A stretch of 64,000 bases of DNA. It comes from Puccinia triticina (Eukaryota > Basidiomycota > Pucciniomycetes > Pucciniales > Pucciniaceae). The notes beneath the pieces are model-generated. The model was not told the DNA's origin and did no database searches. It was given only the letters and a program-made list of their open reading frames with translations. The stretch spans positions 620,001 through 684,000 of the forward strand of contig NC_070566.1 in assembly GCF_026914185.1 (NCBI RefSeq), written 5' to 3'. Both the position numbers and the translations under genes were made by a program. Numbering within the stretch: the first letter of the stretch is position 1; each line of letters opens with the position of its first letter. Of this stretch, positions 6,237-63,730 are shown in pieces.

Positions 6237-8521
6237 ATGCATTGATGTCATGCATGACATCATTCAGTCATGTGATGTTAGTCAGTTTGTAGACATCACT
6301 TCCTTTCCACCTTCTCTTCTCCCTCCAGATCCGCATTGATTGATACTACACTCAAAATCACATTCTCCTCAAAATTATTCTCCAAACCAAAATCCCTGTT
6401 GATCCTAAATAGGCTTCAATGTCATTCTCAAGCCTATTCTAACTTTACTAATAACATTATTGTTATTCTCCAACTCATCTCTACACCATCATTTCAACTA
6501 CTCCCCTTATTCCACTGTCTCTTTCTCACCTTTTTGTATTTCACATCTTCTCTCCTCAAAAATTAACAACATCAAATTTCTCTCCTCCTCAAATTTAACA
6601 ACATCAAATTTGCCTCCAACCTATAGTTGAATTGTTGGCTCACTTCTACCGTGTCAATTATTGGCACTCTTCTAATTGATCTTTCTCCAATACCGTTGTG
6701 AGAACTCCTTTTGGGACGGGTGGCAGTTCTGCAAGGGGGAAATAGCAGTTATAATATTTCAAGTATGTATGAAGCTTTTACAACTGTTACGGGTGGTTTG
6801 AAATACCTGCCCCTCTATGATACTACACAAGAGTTATCACTACAAATTTATTTTATTGTTGTGGCAAACTAATGATAGAGAGAACTATGTGTAGCAGTCT
6901 CTAATCAAACTTGAATTCAGTGGAAATGCTGAGTGGATATTAAAAGAATAATTGAATTGAGATTTATTGCCTAAATGAAACCAACACGCTGAAAGAAAAC
7001 AATTAGAAATTGAAGAGCACATGACAACTGGAGGAAGAAGAAGAAGAGAACAAGAACCAACATAGAGACAAGCAAGGGTATATGAGAGATGAGGCTGTTG
7101 AGGTTGTGAGGACTAGGAAGGAAGATTGAGAAGAGCAGAAGCTGAGGTCAAGATGTTAGTTGATAAGCTGAAGTGGGATTGAGCGGATTGGGGTAAGGTT
7201 TCACCAGACAAACATGGAAGAAGCGAGTTGTAAGAAGAAAGAAAAGGAAGAAGGAATTGAAGTGGATGAGGAGGATTGAGTGATGTGATTGATTGTTGTT
7301 GAGTTGAGTTGATATTGAGTATGGCTGAGTTGAAGAGATGATGGACAGGTGTAAAGAAAAGAAGGAGGAAAGGGGAAGAAGGAGAGACAATGAAGAGATG
7401 TCACAAGTGTGAAATGGCTGTGATTTTTACAGATATGGGAAATGGAGTTGGTAGTGGAAATCAGTAGGAACGTAAGATATGTTTTGTATGTTTTATATGT
7501 CTTTTAGGGTGAGAGGCGTAGATGCCAAGGCATAGAATGTTTAGAGAAAACTGATGGTAGATGTGAACTATTCAAAGTGTCTTTGCCCTCCTCCTTAACC
7601 TTCAGTTAAGAATACAATGGGTTAAGATCACTTTGACTTGTTAAGGACACAAGTGCTGATGCTTTGCTACTTGACTACTTATATAATTCTGAGGTATTAA
7701 AGATGTTTGATGGGCAACTTAATTGAGATCACACTAGTGGATTTATGTGGATTTTGCTTGTAACTCTGAGTGAGATGTGTGTTCTAGTTAGGATTGCCTG
7801 AGTGACATGCTGAAATTGAGGAGGGAAAACATGCTCCTTATATATAGCAAAATGTGAGGGATTTTTGCTGGTGGGGAATTCAGTTGAGGGATTTATGCTG
7901 GTGTGACTTCTCCTTTGAGGGATTTTTTGCTTCATGGAAGCTTCTGTTGAGGGATTTTAGCTAGTGAGCCAAGTGATAAATGTGTGATCCAACATGTGAC
8001 TGATGATGTCATGTGACCATACAGGGATACATGTGTGTGCCTGTATAAACTACTCCCTAAATATGTACTTGTAAATGATTCTATACTCTGTATTACCAAA
8101 TATAATTCTATAGTGTTTGATTATGTTCTATCAAAAACAGTTTAATCCCAAATAACTTTTGACTGAGTGGAGCTAGCCTAGTGGTTCAAGTGAGTGACTA
8201 GGGGTTAAATGACATGTAGAATCTAACTATGCAATAATACATCCAAGAATATGCATCCTTCTCATACAGTGAATCAAGACTTTATGCAATTTGATACTTG
8301 AAACAGATTTGGCACACCACACCATCAATTACAAATCATTTCCATCCAGCATTCAATTCAATTTGGTGAGAAAAGAACTCAACATTTCTTCCAACTCTGT
8401 CATTTTTTATTATGTACTGAACTGTTCTCATGGTTAGCTTCTACGGTCCTATCCTCTTACTTCATTGTCTGGCCTCACCTCATTTTTAATCTTGAAAATA
8501 TATCAGAACAGTATAATCTCT
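6237..8521. other. No gene recognised
   Basis: AT-rich DNA with purine-rich stretches (7020-7400) whose minus-strand ORFs are Ser/Leu/Phe low complexity. 7830-7965 repeats GAGGGATTT/GAGGGATTTATGCTGG and resembles 5240-5340. Nothing else can be supported. Confidence 0.4.
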
Positions 8522-20890: not shown

Positions 20891-22052
20891 GAGCATCTCC
20901 ACCGCGGGGGACTATCTGAGGGACTAAATCCCAGGCTTGCGCGACTGTGGCGCAGTTTTAGCTTCCCAACCGAGGTCTCTATCACACCGCAAGGTTCCCA
21001 AAGTAGCACCTCCAGGTTGTGAAACTGGCTACCCCCGACTCCCTGATGGCCGGTCAGCACAAGAGGTGCAAGACCGGTCCTCTCAATGGCCGGTACTGAC
21101 CAGCCATTGACATGCAGTCCTTTTCATGGCCGGTCAGTACCGGCCATCGAGATGCAGTCCTCTCAATGGCCGGTCAGCACCGGCCATCGAGATGTAGTCC
21201 TCTCGATGGCCGGTCAGTACTGGCCATCGACGTGCAGTCCTTTTGATGGCCGGTCAGTACCAGCCATCAACTTGCAGTCCTTTTGATGGCCGGTCAGTAC
21301 CGGCCATTGACTTGCAGTCCTTTCAATGGCCGATCAGTACCGGCCATCGACTTGCAGTCCTCTCAATGGCCGCTCAGTACTGGCCATCAAGATGTAGTCC
21401 TCTTGATGGCCGGTCAGTACCGGCCATTGACATGGCTGTGTGAGTCACTCGATGACCGGTGATTGACCGGTCATCAAGAGGAGATGTGTGTCCTCTTGAT
21501 GACCGGTACAGCCCAGTCATTGAGAGTTGTGCGTCCTCCCGAGGACCGGCCTGTGCCAGTCATCGAGAGGTACTCCCCTAGATGACCGGTATAGAATGGT
21601 CATCGAGAGCTGTGCATCCTCCCAATGACCGGTCTGTACCGGTCATCAAGAGGTGGTGAGTCCCCTCAATTACTGGCACAGACCGGTCATTGAAGGAGGT
21701 ACTGTACTGCTGAGTCCCCTCAATGTCTGGTACCGGCTGTTCATATGTGTTTTTTGTGTACATAGTCGGTTCGGCTGGGACGGCCGTTGATACGTGGATC
21801 TCTGGGGTTGGGGATATCGGGGGTTGTGTGCGGGAAGGAGCGGAGTATCACAGGCCTCCGGCTGTGTGATATGTGTGTCAGAGGAGCTATATGGGGAGCT
21901 ATAGTGTCCTAAATCTGGTCTTGGTTTAGCTCCCCGGATGGGTTTTCCTACTTTAGGGTAGCCTTTAGCGCCTCCGGTGGAGGAGCTAAATCGGATCTGG
22001 GGAGCTAAATTTGGTTTAGTCCCTCGATTTAGCTCCCGCGGTGGAGATGCTC
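20891..22052. mobile_element. PIF/Harbinger-like fold-back MITE (1162 bp)
   Basis: Begins GAGCATCTCCACCGCGGG and ends with the inverse CCCGCGGTGGAGATGCTC, flanked by TAA on each side (20888-20890 and 22053-22055). A 3-bp TAA duplication and GAGCATCTCCA ends fit PIF/Harbinger MITEs known mainly from plants. The middle is filled by the 40-bp hairpin array described separately. No transposase. Confidence 0.8.
21087..21440. repeat. 40-bp minisatellite of GGCCGGT..ACCGGCC hairpins
   Basis: Units begin TGGCCGGTCAGTACCGGCCA at 21127, 21167, 21207, 21247, 21287, 21327, 21367 and 21407, spaced exactly 40 bp, with a degenerate first unit near 21087. Each contains an 18-bp perfect or near-perfect palindrome followed by GCAGTCCTCT. 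From 21445 to about 21740 a related GATGACCGGT...ACCGGTCATC form continues at irregular spacing. Confidence 0.9.
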
Positions 22053-23439: not shown

Positions 23440-24983
23440 TTAGAAGTCTTCGTCCAATGAGAAGAGACCACCCCCGCCTGCTTCCTTGGCCTCTGCTCCG
23501 TCTTCGCCCCTCGACCGGGTCATCACTCCGGCCTTGGCGTAATCTGAAACCCGCTTCTCAAAGAAGTTCGTCTTTCCTGACAAGGAAATCATCTCCATAC
23601 TGTTGGGCGCAAGCGATGCGGGGGTGTATCAGCATGATGAAATCAATGCTCGCGCTGGTGTGGGATAAGAGTGAGACGTACAAGTCAAACGGATTGGTCG
23701 CATTGTAAAATTTCTCGTTGCCCAATGCCACAAGAAGTCGGTCAGCGACGAATTCAATATACCTAAGCAAATGAAGGGATATGAAGTGAGTGCTAGACCC
23801 TCGGGCAGGTACCATGAAGATTATACTGACTGGCACATCAGGTCAGCATTCATCCCGATGAGCTTGCAGGGGAGGGCGTCGGAGAGGAACTCCTTTTCGA
23901 TTTCGACAGCCTGGGCGATGATGGCTTGGACGGTGTCGGGATGGGGGCGACGTTCGAGGTGGGAAAAGAGTAGACAAGCGAAATCGGTGTGGAGACCTTC
24001 GTCTCGAGAGATCAGCTCGTTGGAGAACGTCAGGCCAGGCATCAGTCCGCGCTTCTTGAGCCAAAAGATCGATGCAAATGATCCTGATGAGTGTGTTGCC
24101 CAAGTGTCAAGTCAGTGGCATTTGTCAAGCGGAGTAGTCGGAGAGCAAAGCCAGGATGGTGAGAAAATCACCTGAGAAAAAGATGCCCTCGACAGCGGCG
24201 AACGCGATCAGTCGTTCACCAAAAGTCGATTTCTTGTCCGAGATCCAGGTGAGAGCCCAGTCGGCCTTCTTTCGGATACAGGGAATGGTATCGATGGCAT
24301 CGAACAGATGGCCGCGCTCGGTGGGCTCTCGCACGTAGGTGTCGATGAGCAAGGAATAGACTTCAGAATGAATGTTTTCCCTGGATGAAGTAGACGCGCG
24401 TCAGCATGATGAGCCAGGGGTGGGAGGGAGACGCGCGCGGGGGGTAGGACAGACATCATGATTTGGAAGCCGTAGAAGCAACGTGCTTCGGCTATCTGGA
24501 CCTCGCCACTGAATCTCTCGATGAGGTTCTCGTTGACGATCCCGTCGGAGGCGGCAAAGAAGGCGAGGACGTGTTTGATGAAGTGTTTCTCGTCGGCGTT
24601 CAGTTTGTTGTCCCAGTCGTGCATGTCCTTGGACAGGTCGATCTCCTCGGCCGTCCAGAAGGAAGCTTCGGCGCGTTTATAGGATGCCCAGATCTGGACA
24701 GGACGCGTTCGAGGCAGAGTAAGTGGGGTGTGTCCCTCTGGGGGGCAGGGATGGGGGAGGTGGGTGGACAGACCTCGTGGTACTTGATTGGGAAGAGCAC
24801 GAATCGGTGGCCATCCTCCTTGAGGAGGGGCTCTTGGCTGTCGGAGGTGATGTCGAGATTGCCGACGAAGCGGGTTCGGTCGATGGAGGTGCATGAGCTG
24901 ATGTGGTTGGAAGCTTCGTGGGCTGGTTTGTCGCCCAGGCTGAGGTTCTTGAGCGCGTTCTCTGGTTCGGAAAGGGACATCAT
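23440..24983 (-). CDS. RNR2: Ribonucleotide reductase small subunit (R2)
   Basis: Class Ia R2, which holds the di-iron/tyrosyl radical cofactor for deoxynucleotide synthesis. Six exons join in phase: 24983-24774, 24693-24455, 24380-24172, 24083-23831, 23762-23682 and 23599-23440, giving 383 residues (usual length about 390-400). Introns are 80, 74, 88, 68 and 82 nt. All cofactor residues are present: Asp120 ([10 protein letters not shown]), Glu151 and His154 (ENIHSEVY), radical Tyr158, Glu214 ([10 protein letters not shown]), Glu248 and His251 (RDEGLHTDF). The C-terminus ends FSLDEDF, the peptide that docks R2 to the large subunit. Two Met codons are adjacent at the start; the second is equally possible. 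The gene is divergent from the LYR gene, with only 230 bp between starts. Confidence 0.97.
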
Positions 24984-25213
24984 GATGTGATATGTATGTA
25001 TGTTGATATTGAGATATGGATGTGTGTGAGTGGATGGTGTGGTCAGTCGATGGGGTTCGAGATGGGCGATGGCGGTGGCGGTGGCGGGGTGGGGGTTTTG
25101 TTGTATGTCCATGTCCCCGGGGGGTTGTCCCTGCGCAGTGACTGTGCACTGGACCGGGGGGCCAGCTGGCCAGCACTCCTGCGCATGCAGCCAGGCTGCC
25201 CTGCCCAAAAGAA
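24984..25213. promoter_or_regulatory. Divergent promoter region between RNR2 and the LYR gene
   Basis: 230 bp between the two start codons. It contains a (GGCGGT)n-like stretch, CCCCGGGGGG, and the palindrome TGCGCAGTGACTGTGCA (25132-25148), which is one base different from the core palindrome of the CACTA MITEs. No MluI-type ACGCGT box, the usual cell-cycle element of RNR genes, is seen here. Function of the palindrome is unknown. Confidence 0.5.
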
Positions 25214-26672
25214 ATGGCCGCCCCGCCCGCCAGGTTCCGCCTGCCGCACTTCGGCCCGCGCAAGACCGCCGTTCCGAAGCGGCCACTCAAGCAGGCCGAG
25301 CTGCCCGCAGAGACCGCCGAGCTGCTCGGGCAGATCCAGACGATCATCCAGAACAGACCCCGGCTGTTCCAGACCACCCCACTCAGCCGGCCCAGACACT
25401 GGTGGCGGCTGCCCGCGCACCGACGGCCGACCCGGTGGTCCCTCTATCGCCATCTGCTCAGACACGCCGCCTGGCTCGACCACCAGCTCAGAACACCCTC
25501 CGTCCCCCAGCACCCACGCCCTGCCGCCTTCGCATCCACCCCCGTCCTGGCCAACCAGATCCGATCGCAGTTCAAGCAGCACAGAACCCTCAGGACCATC
25601 CCGCATACCCAGGAATTACTGAGACAGGCATATCTGGTTAGCAGTCCCTGCCTGCCAATCCATCTCCTGGATCGCCACCCTTGACCTGGACCATCCCGCT
25701 CTTCAAAAGCACAGCTGTTGACCAAACTCGTCGACGCCAAAGCTGGCGACCTCGACCAGCTCGACCAGCTCAAATCGTACCGGGATGAGTTGATAGAAGC
25801 CAGACATCGGAAGATTTGGGGCAAGACCTACAAGGCCCACCTCGTCAGTCCAGCCCACCTGGGCGCATTCCCCCCTCCGATCATCCCGATCAACTCGCTG
25901 ATTTGACTCGGAAAATTTTACAAGAATGCGCAAAAACCTCGCACGCCGATCATGACTGGGCGGTTCCTAAGACCCTCAGTTCTCAATGGTCCACTCCCGC
26001 GACTAGCCCATCAACCATTGCATGTGAGACCATCAATCTGGCCAAGGCTCTCATCGCTGCTGACTGGTGTTGGGTTCCTCGTGATGATCTCAACAGATTA
26101 GCATGATGATGAACTCTCGTCGCAAGAAACGCGAACGCAGGGTTGCCGAGCATCGCCATTTGAAGGATAAATTGGATACCGTCCGTCAGGAGCATCAGTT
26201 CGATTCGGCGCTTGGCCACGACCAGTCGGAAGCTATCGAGCAGGAACACAACAGAGAAGGTTTGTCTCTCAACACTCTCCTCTCTGTCCTCGTCCCCGCT
26301 CACCTGTCTTGTGTGGACTGGTTTAGTCAAAGGTATATTGGACCGGTTAAACGACATCAGTCGCAGTTTTACACTCGACAAAGAGCGAGAGAAGGTAAGG
26401 ATTTCGGATCACTTATTTCAAGGGGGAAATCGATTTCTGATATGTTTGGGTCAAATATAAAACAGAAAGTGTACAGTCGGGAGTTGTTAGACAAGATCGA
26501 AGCGGCCAGGCGGAGACGGCCGCGAGTGATGGAGCAGCGCAACCGATGGAAACGGATCAAGACCAGGATGGCCGAGCTGGAGGATGTGGTGGAGGACGAC
26601 CCGGAAGGCGGGCGGGAAACTGCCGAGGGCAAACGCTTCCGGATCCCCGAGCCTTCCTTCTGGCGGAAATGA
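25214..26672 (+). CDS. Complex1 LYR-domain protein, probably mitochondrial
   Basis: Six exons join in phase: 25214-25636, 25715-25843, 25925-26023, 26097-26259, 26327-26394 and 26466-26672, giving 362 residues. LYR proteins are small helical adaptors that bind acyl-carrier protein and assemble respiratory complexes or Fe-S proteins in mitochondria. The signature is [11 protein letters not shown] (residues about 75-85), followed by [12 protein letters not shown] and [21 protein letters not shown], matching the three-helix LYR pattern. The rest is a fungal-type extension: [14 protein letters not shown], a basic stretch RRKKRERR, then [13 protein letters not shown] and a charged tail. The N-terminus is basic and proline-rich, as expected for import. 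Which LYR subfamily is not clear. The splice sites were chosen because only they keep all six blocks in one frame. Confidence 0.7.
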
Positions 26673-41269: not shown

Positions 41270-41870
41270 ATCGGCACACGTCCGGTGGACACTTGGGACT
41301 GAAGAGTGTCCACTGGATGGCCAGGGAGCATCCCGCGGATGCCAGGTGCGCTGAGCATCACGTGGACGTTTTTTGAAAGCGTTCATGTGATGCTCCGCTC
41401 TTAAGAGCGTCGAGTGGACATCCCAAAAAACCGTCCTTTGGACATTCTCCATTGAGAGTGTCCAATGGACACCTCGGGTCAAGCATCCATCGGACACTCC
41501 AGGCAGAGTGTCCGATGGACACCAAAGCATCACTGTCCGGTGGACACTCTTGTCTGAGAGTGTCCGATGGACACCATCAAGACAGCGTCCATCGGACACT
41601 CTTGACCGAGAGCGTCCGATGGACACCACCAAGACAGCGTCCATTGAACACTCGACCGAGAGTGTCCGATGGACACCCACAAGACACCGTCCATTGGACA
41701 CTCTGGATCAAGAATGTCCGATGGACACCCACAACCGCACACTCTCCACTGAGAGTGTCCGATGGGCACTAACAAGACACCATCCATCGGACACTGCGGA
41801 TCAAGTGTGTCCGATGGACACCCACCATCAGCATTTTTCGGACACTCCGATGGAGCCAGAAAAAGGACTG
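41270..41870. repeat. Sub-terminal palindrome array, left (GTCCGATGGAC type)
   Basis: GTGTCCGATGGACACC and its variants (GTCCATCGGAC, GTCCGGTGGAC) occur about 20 times, alternating with CACTCT...GAGAGTGT and CAAGACA spacers; adjacent modules repeat with a period near 60-64 bp. Long ORFs read on both strands are translations of the repeat. Confidence 0.85.
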
Positions 41871-58405: not shown

Positions 58406-59576
58406 GCGATTGTGACAGTTCGAGCGGATGACCGTGACACTCGACACCGCGCACATGTCGCAAAACAGGAATTGGTTGCTGTTAGAGGACCGGAACAGGA
58501 CCCAGGAAAGCCCCTATGGAACACAGTAACCAAAATGTATGATTTTTTTGTCAAAAAACAAAAAACCTACGCACCCCAGATGTACAAATGGTCATTTTGG
58601 CCGGTAAAGGTACTCACCTCAATTGTATGAATTTTTTCTGAGGGCAAGGGGGGTAGTAACCAAAAATGTATGAGAATCAGGGGCTCAAGCTAAGGTTGAA
58701 ATCCTTGTCTGTAATGATTTTTCAGTCTGAATCAAGTCTACAGTTCTAGGCTGGAGCGGTACCACACTCACCCTAACTTGACACAAGTCCCCCCTGGTGG
58801 GAGGCTCGCTGTGGCTGGCCGCAAAGCGGCCCCTCCCGCAGGGAGGGACTTGTGCACAAAGTCAAAATTTTGGCTGAGAAAGAAATCACCAATGGCTGGA
58901 GGAAAAATACTTAGCATCACCCAGCCTCCCCCTCAGCTCCTGTGGACCTGCCCCAGAGCCAAATTACACTTCTCAATCTCAGCTTTCAAATGGCACTGGT
59001 CTCATCTCCCCAATCCTTATCATTTTTGCTGTACTAATGTTGTAAAAATAAAAAAACACAAAGGAATGTAAACCAAGACATTACAACCATCATGCCTTGT
59101 GGATATTGGATTCACAAGCCTGCAGATATCTGCAGATCCTACACCTGTAGCCACCCAATTGATGCAGATAGGATATTCAATTGTGCATATTATCAGAAAA
59201 TCCAAAACTGGATCTTCAGTGCAATGGAATATCCTCCAGGATTCCTTTGACCTCCAAAACGGATTCCTTCAATCAGTTTTGGAGTTCATGCCTCAAAAAC
59301 TTGGGGGAGGGTGCCCATCAGTACTGCCAAGAAAACTGTCTATCCAGTTTTTCTTGTACATATTTTGGTGAATTTTAAATTGTGCTTTCGTGTTTTTAGG
59401 ATTGAAAATCCTTCCTTTGTCTGCCAGCCTGCAGACATTATTCATAAGCCTCTCCTACGGAGAGCCCTCCGGGCGGGGTCCCCCGGACCCTCCGTTCGAG
59501 AGGCTTAGTTAAGCTAGACACTCACCTACCCTCCGGCTGCGGCTCCAGTACCACCGCCACAAGTATATACGAAGTA
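58406..59576. other. Spacer with two short fold-backs
   Basis: 58783-58855 (ACAAGTCCCCCCTGGTGGGAG...GCAGGGAGGGACTTGTG) and 59448-59516 (AAGCCTCTCCTACGGAGAG...TTCGAGAGGCTTAGTTAAGC). The phrase AGTAACCAAAAATGTATGA recurs (58527, 58652). No gene recognised. Confidence 0.45.
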
Positions 59577-59782
59577 CAGCTAACCCAGGAGAGCTTGCAA
59601 CTTGGCGCGCAAACTCCGAGACTTTGTGCCGCAGCGGCCAGACTTGTCCGCAGCTCCAGACATCCGTGCGCGCGGACCGTGCCCGGGGGAACCCGGGGGA
59701 GGAGCCTGCAGGAGAGCTGCCTGCCGCCGACCCAAACCCTGCCTGCCGCCACCACCAACCCACCACCCACCACCGCCGAATC
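59577..59782 (+). repeat. 206-bp terminal inverted repeat, left
   Basis: Identical to the reverse complement of 63523-63728 up to CCGCCGAATC. It contains GCGCGCGGACCGTGC and a CCCGGGGGAACCCGGGGGAG stretch, then (CCACCACCAACC)-type repeats. Its GC content contrasts with the interior. Confidence 0.95.
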
Positions 59783-59842
59783 CATCAACCCCGCCACCGC
59801 CACCCCCAGTAAAATCAACCCCAACGGTCCTTTGGAACCATT

Positions 59843-61714
59843 GTGCCATTGGGGAACAATCCAACACGCGTGAGTTATTTTGGTTTATCATCATCATGTG
59901 TGGGCCTTTTCTCACCACGAACTAATTTCTATGCCGCAATTGATCATTTCCGTAAAAGTAGCAGGTTTGGGATGGACAATAACTCCCGTTATCGTTCAGT
60001 TTCACCGTCCGAATACCGCGAATGGTTCCACCATCCACTGACGCCGCCTGCCGACAGACACGTGCCCTCGCTTTTTGATGGCACTGCTCACTTGGTCGCG
60101 GATCGCAACCGCCACCGGGACGCCTTCATACGAAGCCAGCAAAGACCGTCTCACGTCGACCCATCACTCTCGGGCTTACCTCCAGCTTCACCAGCCACCA
60201 GCCGATCGAGCGACTTGATACTATCTCAATCATTGGCTACCAACTCTCAACAACACAGCCAGGCACTTCCCAATCGTGCAGGATCCACTTCGGGCCGCCC
60301 TGAGGTTCCCATAAGTATCGAGTTCATCCTATTTACGCCCCTTCCCAAACCTCCTGCTGCAAACCCCCGCAAGCGACGAAGCCTAGCTGGTTCCATTGGC
60401 CCCCAATACAATAAAGTCGAATCGGAACCTGGCAAGCTGATGATCAACTGGGACACTCACAACTACAATCTCGAGAGTTTCAAAGCTGCGGCAATCAATG
60501 AGATTGAACACAGCGAAGACGAGGGGCTTGGATTCTTTGCCCAAGCCCAAGCTCTAAAAGGTAACATTGTTTGGAATGCGATTATCCCAAATGGACGCGT
60601 GTTTTCAGCAGCCCAAAAAAAAAGAATTGATTCCGATGAGATATTCACCCAGTTCCTCCTGGTTGCCGAGGGCACTCCGGAAAGCCGCCAGATTATATGT
60701 CGCTTGGTCCAGAAAGATCCGATAGTTGTAGCTCAGGTAAGTGGCTTTTTCCTGTCCACCTCAACCCAGTCGGAATGTCTCATTGACCTCATTTTGTGTG
60801 ATATTTTAGAAAGAATCTGCCTACAAACACCTCAGGACCATGCATGCCGGTCCCAGCTCTGAAGAAACTCCATCCAATGGGCCCTCCGCAGGTGCACAGG
60901 AAGCGGCTTCCCTCACGGACTTGGTGCAGCAACTTGGCTGTATCCACGAACCCGCTGAACACCTGACTAGAAGTCACGAGGTCGGCGTGTTCATCAATCC
61001 TGAGAACCCCAACGAGTTTTTCAAGATGACTCCCAAGCGAATTGCTATGTGGGCCAAAGCAATTGTGAGTGTGTTCTATTCCCTTTATTTCCTTGGGATG
61101 TATGGCTGAGGATCTGATCTGACTGCTCATGAGATTCATAGAAGACCAACCCCGGCCAAGTCACCCTCCGTGTTCCCCCAAAATCGGACAGCTTTCAATT
61201 TCAGACCAAGGAGGATGTACCGCCGCCTCAAGCTCCAGTTCACCCCACACTTCCAGCTCCCGTTTCGGCCGCGTTTCAGTATCCAACAACGTCGGCCGGA
61301 TTCCAATATCCAACACAGTTTGGATTTTCAATGCCTCCGGGAGTGTTCTTGAACCCAATGCAACTGGCCGCCTCGCAACTGGCCGCCTCGCAACTGGCCG
61401 CCTCAAACTCAATGACCGGCCCGACCGGCCCCAGCACCCCAGAACATCCCACCCGGGCTTTGTCACCAATAACCCCTCCAAGCGGCGAGGACCACAGCCT
61501 TGAGGATTTCCTCGAATTTGCACACGTCAATCCAGATTCCCCCGGAGTCATTGAGGGGATCGGAACCCTTGGGATCACTCACTGGACTATGTTCAAGTCC
61601 TTCAGTTCTGACGAGCTTGCCAGCAGAGGTATCCCCGAAGGCCCCGCCCGATCCATTGTCTCATCTGCAAAGAAATATGCGCATCACTTAATGAAGGTTT
61701 CTAGAAACCAATAA
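59843..61714 (+). CDS. Transposon accessory protein with SAM-like C-terminus
   Basis: Three exons, 59843-60736, 60810-61064 and 61142-61714, join in phase 0 (introns 73 and 77 nt), giving 573 residues; ATG at 59972 (MDNNSRYRSVSPSEYREW) would give 530 and may be the true start. N-terminal third is Ser/Pro/Arg-rich. The middle holds INWDTHNYNLESFKAAAINE, ALKGNIVWNAIIPNGRVFSA and FTQFLLVAEGTPESRQIICR. The C-terminus, about residues 498-565, reads HSLEDFLEFAHVNPDSPGVI, then GTLGITHWTMFKSFSSDEL and GPARSIVSSAKKY, which has the spacing of a SAM-like helical domain. A 15-bp repeat encodes QLAAS three times. Function unknown; it may bind DNA or the transposase. Confidence 0.75.
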
Positions 61715-62229
61715 GTATCTTACTCCCCCGATCCATTCTTATGTACTCCTTTTCCTTATTGTTTCAAAGTCATCAATACATTGTAGCTCCAGCATTCTAG
61801 CCTCCTTCCGACCATCTCTTTATGTAAATTCTAACCTCCTTCCAACCATCTCTTTTTGTAAATAAAACTGGTTAACGTTGTTATAATCGATAGTCCATTT
61901 GAAGGAGCAATCAATAGTCCATTTGATTGGTCCAAGATGAGTTTGCGCATCACATGGGTCTCTTGGAATGGGAGGCTCTTGGAACGGGAGGATCTCAGCA
62001 GACCCGTTTTCCCAATGAAGTCTCAATCTTGTGGTGGATCTCAGCAGACCCGTTTTCCCAATGAAGTCTCAATCTTGTGGTTAATTACATCCGGAGTCAG
62101 ATAAATATGCAGAAAAACCGAATGTTAAGTCAAAGAATCGAGCACATTGATTACAAAGTAATGTTACAAAGAATTGAGCAAGTTGTTTATCAATACAAAA
62201 AAACGGGCAGCCGGTAGTCCGGGGATCCA
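61715..62229. other. Convergent intergenic space inside the transposon
   Basis: TACCTCCTTCC-like phrase CTAACCTCCTTCCAACCATCTC recurs as a short duplication near 61798-61855. GGATCTCAGCAGACCCGTTT...CTTGTGG is duplicated in tandem (about 61990-62035 and 62036-62080). No gene. Confidence 0.6.
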
Positions 62230-63333
62230 TTAATCGGTGTAACCAGACCCTCGGAACAGGCCTTGCATGAGTTCGTCGGTGAAAACAAGCCTTGCAAAGG
62301 CCTCGATTGCCTCCCCATCGGTTTTGCCCCCATCAAGTTCGCCATATTGTCTGAGTGATGATTTTAACACACTAAAACCCTTTTCAATTGGGTTCAGGTC
62401 GGGGGAGTAGGCCGGAAGATAGATCAGCAGACAGCCGTGATCCTCAACTATGCGTTCGATGTTCCCGTTGTGATGGATTTGCGCATTATCCATCACAACG
62501 ATGCTTTGGGGTCCTGGGTATGGATTCATATTTGGAAGCTTCAAAAAAAAAAGTGGTCAGTTAGGATGCCGCGCGCAGAATCCATCAAGCTACTCACCAA
62601 CACATGCTCTAAGTATGTCTCGAAATCGATTCGCTTGACAGTTTCAGACTGTATCATCACTGCAACCAGCCCGCTCAGGGCCACCGCTGGGATTAAATTG
62701 AAGCGGTGGGTAGCCCGCGCTACCGGGAGCCGTGACGTCCTCTCACCCACTTGAGCCCAACCCCGAGTGCGGATCACTGCATCCAAACATACCCCGCTTT
62801 CATCTTTCAGAGAGGGAGGGTGTTAGCTACTATATACAAATAAAAATTCAGAGAGAGAAGAAATAAAACTGACCAGTGAAGACGAGGCATTCAGGCTCAA
62901 AGTTGGCCATCAAAAGGAGGTACTTGGCTCGTTGAGTCCGGTCTTGATTCGGATTTACCTTACGCATAGTTTTTTGACTCATTTGGAGGCGTCCATGAAG
63001 CTCGTTCGAGATGGTTTGGACTGAGATTTGGAGGTTGCATTCGGTGGATAGTGCCTGCTGAATTTCTTGTGGGTAGATCGTTGGGTTGTCGGTGACTAGC
63101 TCCAAGAGAAACAATCGTTCTTCTTCACTGAGAGCCAAAGGGCGCCCCCTTTTTTCGTACGTTTCGGGATCGACGACAACCGAACGAGTCTTTTTGTATA
63201 GAACACACCACCGTCGGAGGGAATCAGAACTAACCTCAGATCCATTTGCCGCGTTGATTTCGGCGAGTGGTTTTCCATCAAGGGCTGCCTGAACAACGAT
63301 GAATTTGAAGGAGGCTGAATACTTGACAAACAT
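62230..63333 (-). CDS. Tc1/mariner-superfamily DD34E transposase
   Basis: Exons 63333-62874, 62803-62598 and 62538-62230 join in phase (introns 70 and 59 nt) to give 324 residues. The N-terminus (KYSASFKFIVVQAALDGKPL, SSDSLRRWCVLYKK) is a helix-turn-helix region; PLALSEEERLFLLELVTDNP and ISVQTISNELHGRL form a second one. The catalytic triad is Asp154 (DESG, split by intron 1), Asp239 (VMDNAQIHH) and Glu274 (YSPDLNPIEKGF); 34 residues separate the last two. This is a DDE_3/IS630-Tc1 arrangement: it cuts at terminal repeats and inserts at TA. No stop or frameshift is visible, so it may be active. An upstream in-frame TTG (63369) is not used because ATG 63333 fits the family start. Confidence 0.92.
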
Positions 63334-63522
63334 GGTGTCTAGAGGAGGGATCAGCTTTGTGACATTCAAGGGAAATCAAATAGGAACATACCTGTGAGAG
63401 AATCCAAGCTGCAATGTCAGTGGCGACTGCTGGGTTTGATGATGGTGGTGGTGGCTGGATTCGACAGCGGCGGTGGATGGATGAAATTGGTGGCGGTGGC
63501 AGGCTGGCGTCGCTCGGCAGTC

Positions 63523-63728
63523 GATTCGGCGGTGGTGGGTGGTGGGTTGGTGGTGGCGGCAGGCAGGGTTTGGGTCGGCGGCAGGCAGCTCTCCTGCAGG
63601 CTCCTCCCCCGGGTTCCCCCGGGCACGGTCCGCGCGCACGGATGTCTGGAGCTGCGGACAAGTCTGGCCGCTGCGGCACAAAGTCTCGGAGTTTGCGCGC
63701 CAAGTTGCAAGCTCTCCTGGGTTAGCTG
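63523..63728 (-). repeat. 206-bp terminal inverted repeat, right
   Basis: Exact inverse of 59577-59782. The transposase start is 190 bp inside it, so its promoter lies in or next to the repeat. Confidence 0.95.
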
Positions 63729-63730
63729 TA

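Follow-up and report, generated by a model that had tools for sequence, protein, structure and literature searches.

The Tc1/mariner transposon is the textbook one-gene transposon, in which the transposase alone suffices. A locus in the rust fungus Puccinia triticina raises the question of what a second gene is doing inside such an element. The locus occupies positions 59577-63728 (4,152 bp) of a 64,000-nucleotide stretch of contig NC_070566.1 (positions 620,001 to 684,000, forward strand), referred to here as the window, and it carries a transposase gene and a second gene facing it, whose product we call the accessory protein. Our reading, to which we give a probability of about 0.55, is that this is a two-gene Tc1/mariner element whose second protein would serve as a cofactor of transposition. 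An earlier note, made from the letters of the window, had proposed an accessory factor that moves with the element, and most of what follows bears on that proposal.

Borders and copies of the element

The element is bounded by terminal inverted repeats of 206 bp with 68% G+C, the left one on the plus strand at 59577..59782, starting with CAGCTAACCCAGG, and the right one on the minus strand at 63523..63728. The two arms are identical, as the note had claimed: positions 59575-59782 and 63523-63730, that is, 208 nt comprising each repeat and its flanking TA (59575..59576 on the left, 63729..63730 on the right), are 100% complementary. The terminal 13-mer CAGCTAACCCAGG has 28 exact matches in the 122.8 Mb genome: most of them form 13 inward-facing pairs, and the remaining two are lone ends on contig C1. 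Written backward, the same pattern is found only twice, once forward and once in reverse, so that chance is excluded as the origin of the 28 matches. All 13 paired copies have TA on both flanks, and their arms are 99-100% identical to those of the window copy. Eleven measure 4,133-4,266 bp; the other two, at 7,926 and 11,480 bp, are so much longer that later, nested insertions are suggested. Both genes were matched by tblastn in every one of the 13 copies (a test of presence and not of intact frames; the longest was examined as two overlapping pieces, with both genes falling in the first), and some copies carry gaps or a stop relative to the window exons. Transposase-only copies are thus not the norm in this genome, and the second gene does move with the element, as had been proposed, while its being an accessory factor is still a matter of interpretation. 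A transposase fragment (L026) adjoins one of the two lone ends.

The transposase gene, on the minus strand, encodes 324 amino acids in three exons. Exon 1 (62874..63333, ATG at 63333) holds a putative helix-turn-helix region, the codon for D154 spans its junction with exon 2 (62598..62803), and exon 3 (62230..62538) supplies D239, E274 and the stop. The gene had been described as uninterrupted; it is free of premature stops and has the DD34E triad (34 residues separate D239 from E274), but two short introns, at 62804-62873 and 62539-62597, divide it. The protein matches PF13358 (DDE_3) at 114.6 bits, against a cut-off of 28.6, and the helix-turn-helix profiles PF01498 (27.3 bits) and PF13565 (27.0 bits) both under cut-off. 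A sequence search of the PDB returned only a weak match to Sleeping Beauty (E 0.48). Among the best 120 of 2,794 matches, the best named relatives include proteins from P. striiformis and P. graminis, at no more than 60% identity, and one from Phakopsora at 37%. The DDE_3-type domain with DD34E spacing, the TA duplication and the inverted repeats that bound the copies are all those of the Tc1/mariner superfamily. Since the arms are identical and both frames are open in the window copy, the element is probably an autonomous and recently active two-gene member of it.

Used as a genome query, the 206-bp repeat finds 43 places, and diverged relatives at 78-83% are among them. At C11:1424805-1426649 only 1.8 kb separates two facing repeats, and neither gene has a listed match there; this is possibly a short non-autonomous relative. 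C4:4734421-4737557 is a 3.1-kb repeat-bounded stretch in which accessory matches are listed but none to the transposase, which such a derivative may have lost. In the window copy, a 46-bp direct repeat lies between the two genes (61990..62081), and no long inverted-repeat pair was found there besides the arms of the element. Two further features of the ends were considered and set aside. In the IR/DR arrangement, known from Sleeping Beauty, every repeat contains an additional internal binding site. The sequence CAGGAGAGCT does occur twice per arm in the window family (none of 100 shuffles was as good), and four other arms scored at 3-6 of 100, but 13 of the 18 arms searched were no better than shuffles and the arrangement is not claimed. 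In the window copy the start codons of both genes lie 395 bp from their ends of the element, but other copies do not preserve this equality.

Pairing and shared descent of the two genes

Loci for the accessory protein and for transposase exon 1 were located by single-protein searches of the whole genome, whose matches were then merged. Because 150 candidates were scored in each transposase search, the count of accessory loci without a transposase partner is an upper bound. Of the 163 transposase loci obtained from the matches listed, 122 are faced by an accessory match no more than 8 kb away; 5 have one on the same strand, 1 is divergent and 35 have none. Random placement of the transposases gave a mean of 1.6 facing pairs and a maximum of 7 in 1,000 runs (with a length of 6 Mb assumed for C10, C16 and C18). 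Seen from the other gene, 44 exon-3 matches of the accessory protein reach at least 45% identity (a gene may contribute two of them), and 40 of these face a transposase within 12 kb, so that in this genome close relatives of the second gene do not lie mainly outside such elements. When weak and partial matches are included, the merged accessory loci number 256, with a facing partner at 123, another arrangement at 7 and none listed at 126, the last figure owing in part to the limit of 150 candidates.

The arrangement recurs in diverged families. Twenty loci were picked from the facing pairs for reading, several of them close relatives of one another, and in 17 both genes are enclosed by inverted repeats of 113-534 alignment columns with CAGC at the outer end, placed 3.7-5.8 kb apart. 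TACAG stands on both sides in 16 of these and on one side in L044; L030, L035 and L039 are without a full repeat. Four further loci (L047-L050) were chosen for transposases at 37-48% identity. L047 and L050 contain the accessory gene at profile E values of 9e-11 and 3e-13, and its trace in L048 is weak (0.054 and 0.55 in the joint search, 0.0017 and 0.018 when searched alone; 18% identity in the alignment for the N-terminal piece). All three have long arms. L049 (C6:2932300-2937100) has a transposase and no accessory match; in its first 3 kb, adjoining the transposase, all six frames are open over 914-1,003 codons, probably a tandem repeat. Two loci were read on account of weak matches to the SAM-like part only. 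L051 (C9:3441500-3445600) has a distant transposase and a SAM-like accessory gene on the same strand, not facing, and C1:3921203/3924063, C15:297944/300765 and C6:2310715/2307609 look alike by their coordinates. In L052 (C6:6072700-6076900) a pair of accessory-like genes face each other, and the 4.2 kb read gave no match to the transposase; the SAM frame on the plus strand recurs elsewhere in four close copies.

The histories of the two proteins were compared in the 20 of 26 loci that have all four protein pieces (L032, L033, L047, L048 and L049 lack a piece, and L009 shares its family with L020). The pairwise distances among transposases and those among accessory proteins correlate at 0.962, or at 0.920 with one locus for each of 15 families, and none of 2,000 permutations was as high. 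FastTree trees of the two proteins have their well-supported groups in common, with differences at weak nodes such as the placement of L036. Selection was gauged by comparing the window family with 11 other loci; at this distance synonymous sites are near saturation and the ratios are coarse. For the accessory gene, dN/dS was 0.21-0.28 in exon 1 (two comparisons being saturated), 0.13-0.32 in exon 2 and 0.27-0.39 in exon 3; for the transposase it was 0.14-0.26 in exon 1 and 0.05-0.18 in exon 3. Together with the agreeing trees, these ratios indicate that both genes have long been kept and inherited together, the accessory gene in families down to about 30% protein identity. Among recent copies of the window family, selection is weak or absent (pN/pS 0.54-0.64 for the accessory gene and 0.87-0.91 for the transposase), and near-identical pairs such as L037/L038 have no consistent synonymous excess. 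This is as young copies would show and lends no support of its own.

The accessory protein and its possible role

The accessory gene lies on the plus strand, convergent with the transposase and in several exons, just as first described. The splice model, which for both genes was drawn from sequence (GT-AG) and similarity and not from transcripts, gives a protein of 530 amino acids in place of the 573 implied earlier. Exon 1 (59972..60736) encodes residues 1-255, with a predicted PB1-like beta-grasp fold at about 112-255 and a basic RKRR stretch at 133; exon 2 (60810..61064) encodes 85 residues that are conserved in relatives; exon 3 (61142..61714) contains the stop and a predicted SAM-like domain at about residues 459-525. 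The repeated middle module of the note does exist, but it amounts to a minisatellite of three 15-bp units (61360..61404, plus strand) encoding QLAAS repeats, and the exon that bears it differs in length among copies by gaps of 5 or 10 residues.

Both folds are predictions and are named from the structure-search matches listed. Pfam accepted no domain in the accessory exons or in eight relatives, where a Myb domain was likewise without a match, and a PDB sequence search with a 15-sequence accessory profile found nothing. The SAM-like C-terminus, already suspected in the note, is backed by structure prediction and weakly by Pfam, in which SAM_TNK was matched in 5 of 23 members and SAM_1 in 2 of 23 (best E 0.0047 and 0.021), with no SAM profile matching the window copy itself. 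A canonical PB1 domain is marked by an acidic OPCA motif or by a conserved basic residue on the first strand. Neither is conserved here in an alignment read by eye, hence our wording 'PB1-like'. A protein-database search with the 15-sequence alignment found 19 relatives, all uncharacterised proteins of P. triticina, P. graminis and P. coronata, and thus all Puccinia within the scope of a search that requires shared words and scored 7,992 candidates; UniRef lists one, P0137, as SAM domain-containing. In P. graminis CRL 75-36-700-3, an accessory relative (P0010) and a transposase (P0019) are both on 2,008,477-bp contigs, which is only a hint.

How might such a protein assist a transposase? It may self-associate through its two predicted interaction modules and bind the transposase, or the complex of transposase and element end, and would thereby aid the pairing of two ends with unusually long repeats, after which the transposase would cut and paste at TA. 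Alternatively, it could carry the complex into the nucleus, a role that the RKRR stretch would suit. The matching repeats, being upstream of both genes, could also double as matched promoters, although this is a guess. In a stronger version, which we put forward tentatively, a deep rust lineage of Tc1/mariner elements, with transposases down to about 35-45% identity, would need the PB1-like and SAM-like protein as a self-assembling scaffold, one that would pair the long-repeat ends by polymerising on the transposase or together with it.

The closest functional model, by analogy, may be found in PIF/Harbinger transposons, whose target duplication is 3 bp. The TA duplication, the DDE_3 transposase and the lack of a Myb match in the partner rule out membership in that superfamily. 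The excerpts of PMC9179366 describe a Myb-like PIF/Harbinger partner that binds the transposase, is imported with it into the nucleus and binds the terminal repeats; these are also two-gene DNA transposons in which the trees of the two proteins are congruent, yet their partner has a DNA-binding Myb/SANT domain, unlike the PB1-like and SAM-like protein seen here. Tc1-like DD34E elements of the IS630-Tc1-mariner group share with ours the DDE_3 domain, the DD34E triad, the TA duplication and repeats starting with CAG; what sets the rust element apart is a second, conserved, facing gene and the length of the repeats, 113-534 bp in 17 of the 20 related loci read. Nor are extra genes new to the superfamily, and the claim of an undescribed system has to be narrowed to this extent. 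According to the passages of PMC7325037 available, the TBE and Tec elements of ciliates combine a DD34E transposase with extra reading frames, and Tec repeats are long too (about 700 bp), but the extra genes there encode a zinc-finger protein, a site-specific recombinase and frames of unknown function, as against the fungal PB1-like and SAM-like protein. TA-flanked Mariners carry Fanzor1, an endonuclease or a methyltransferase (PMC3627910, in part), and such partners vary between related elements, whereas the rust elements have a single partner, of another kind, that has been inherited jointly with the transposase throughout a deep clade. Tc1-Mariner in Pucciniales is treated in a rust transposon survey of 2025 (PMC12210899), whose available parts make no mention of a second gene; those of PMC3441728, PMC9977792 and PMC4112212 hold nothing on extra genes. 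This architecture and this kind of partner were not described among the matches listed from the open-licence literature, preprints excluded.

The shared descent of the two genes also bears on other explanations. Mariners are among the DNA transposons that capture extra genes (PMC3627910, in part), and the second gene could have been captured once and ride along with no role in movement; a passenger of this sort would decay or be lost, however, and retention to such deep divergence, low dN/dS in all three exons, congruent trees and its presence in 13 of 13 copies make this improbable. That it is part of a different element, nested or adjacent, might be argued from the two overlong copies, from L052 and from the 3.1-kb stretch on C4, where accessory genes occur with no listed transposase. 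We find this hardly credible: diverged families have the two genes in the same order and orientation and within the same repeat boundaries, and the window copy lacks a second pair of long inverted repeats. A less easily dismissed, though still rather unlikely, alternative is that the protein regulates the element or host silencing, for example as a repressor, activator or anti-silencing factor, through protein contacts and outside the cutting complex. PB1-like and SAM-like folds are interaction modules that say nothing on DNA cutting, and the consulted part of PMC8444563 gives Tc1-Mariner of stem rust as one of the repeat classes to which small RNAs map. A factor aimed at silencing would be expected to evolve faster, and divergence in such close step with the transposase is more in keeping with a physical partner, without being decisive.

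Neighbouring sequences and implications

Elsewhere in the window, part of a ribonucleotide reductase small-chain gene lies on the minus strand at 24211-25443 (PF00268, 116 bits). Two arrays were also noted: about nine 40-bp units at 21077-21434, whose cores, GGCCGGTCAGTACCGGCC, are imperfectly palindromic, and units of 52 bp and longer at 41415-41825, built around imperfect palindromes like GTGTCCGATGGACAC.

In this fungal branch a second gene has been retained over deep divergence, which suggests that the self-sufficiency of Tc1/mariner was lost there or supplemented. If the accessory protein is indeed a scaffold, polymer-forming domains of the signalling type would be tied to a DNA transposition complex, and a large family of rust genes now called 'hypothetical protein' would gain a marker for annotation. 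It would then also become possible to test in a simple system why helper proteins accompany some transposons, which is an old question.
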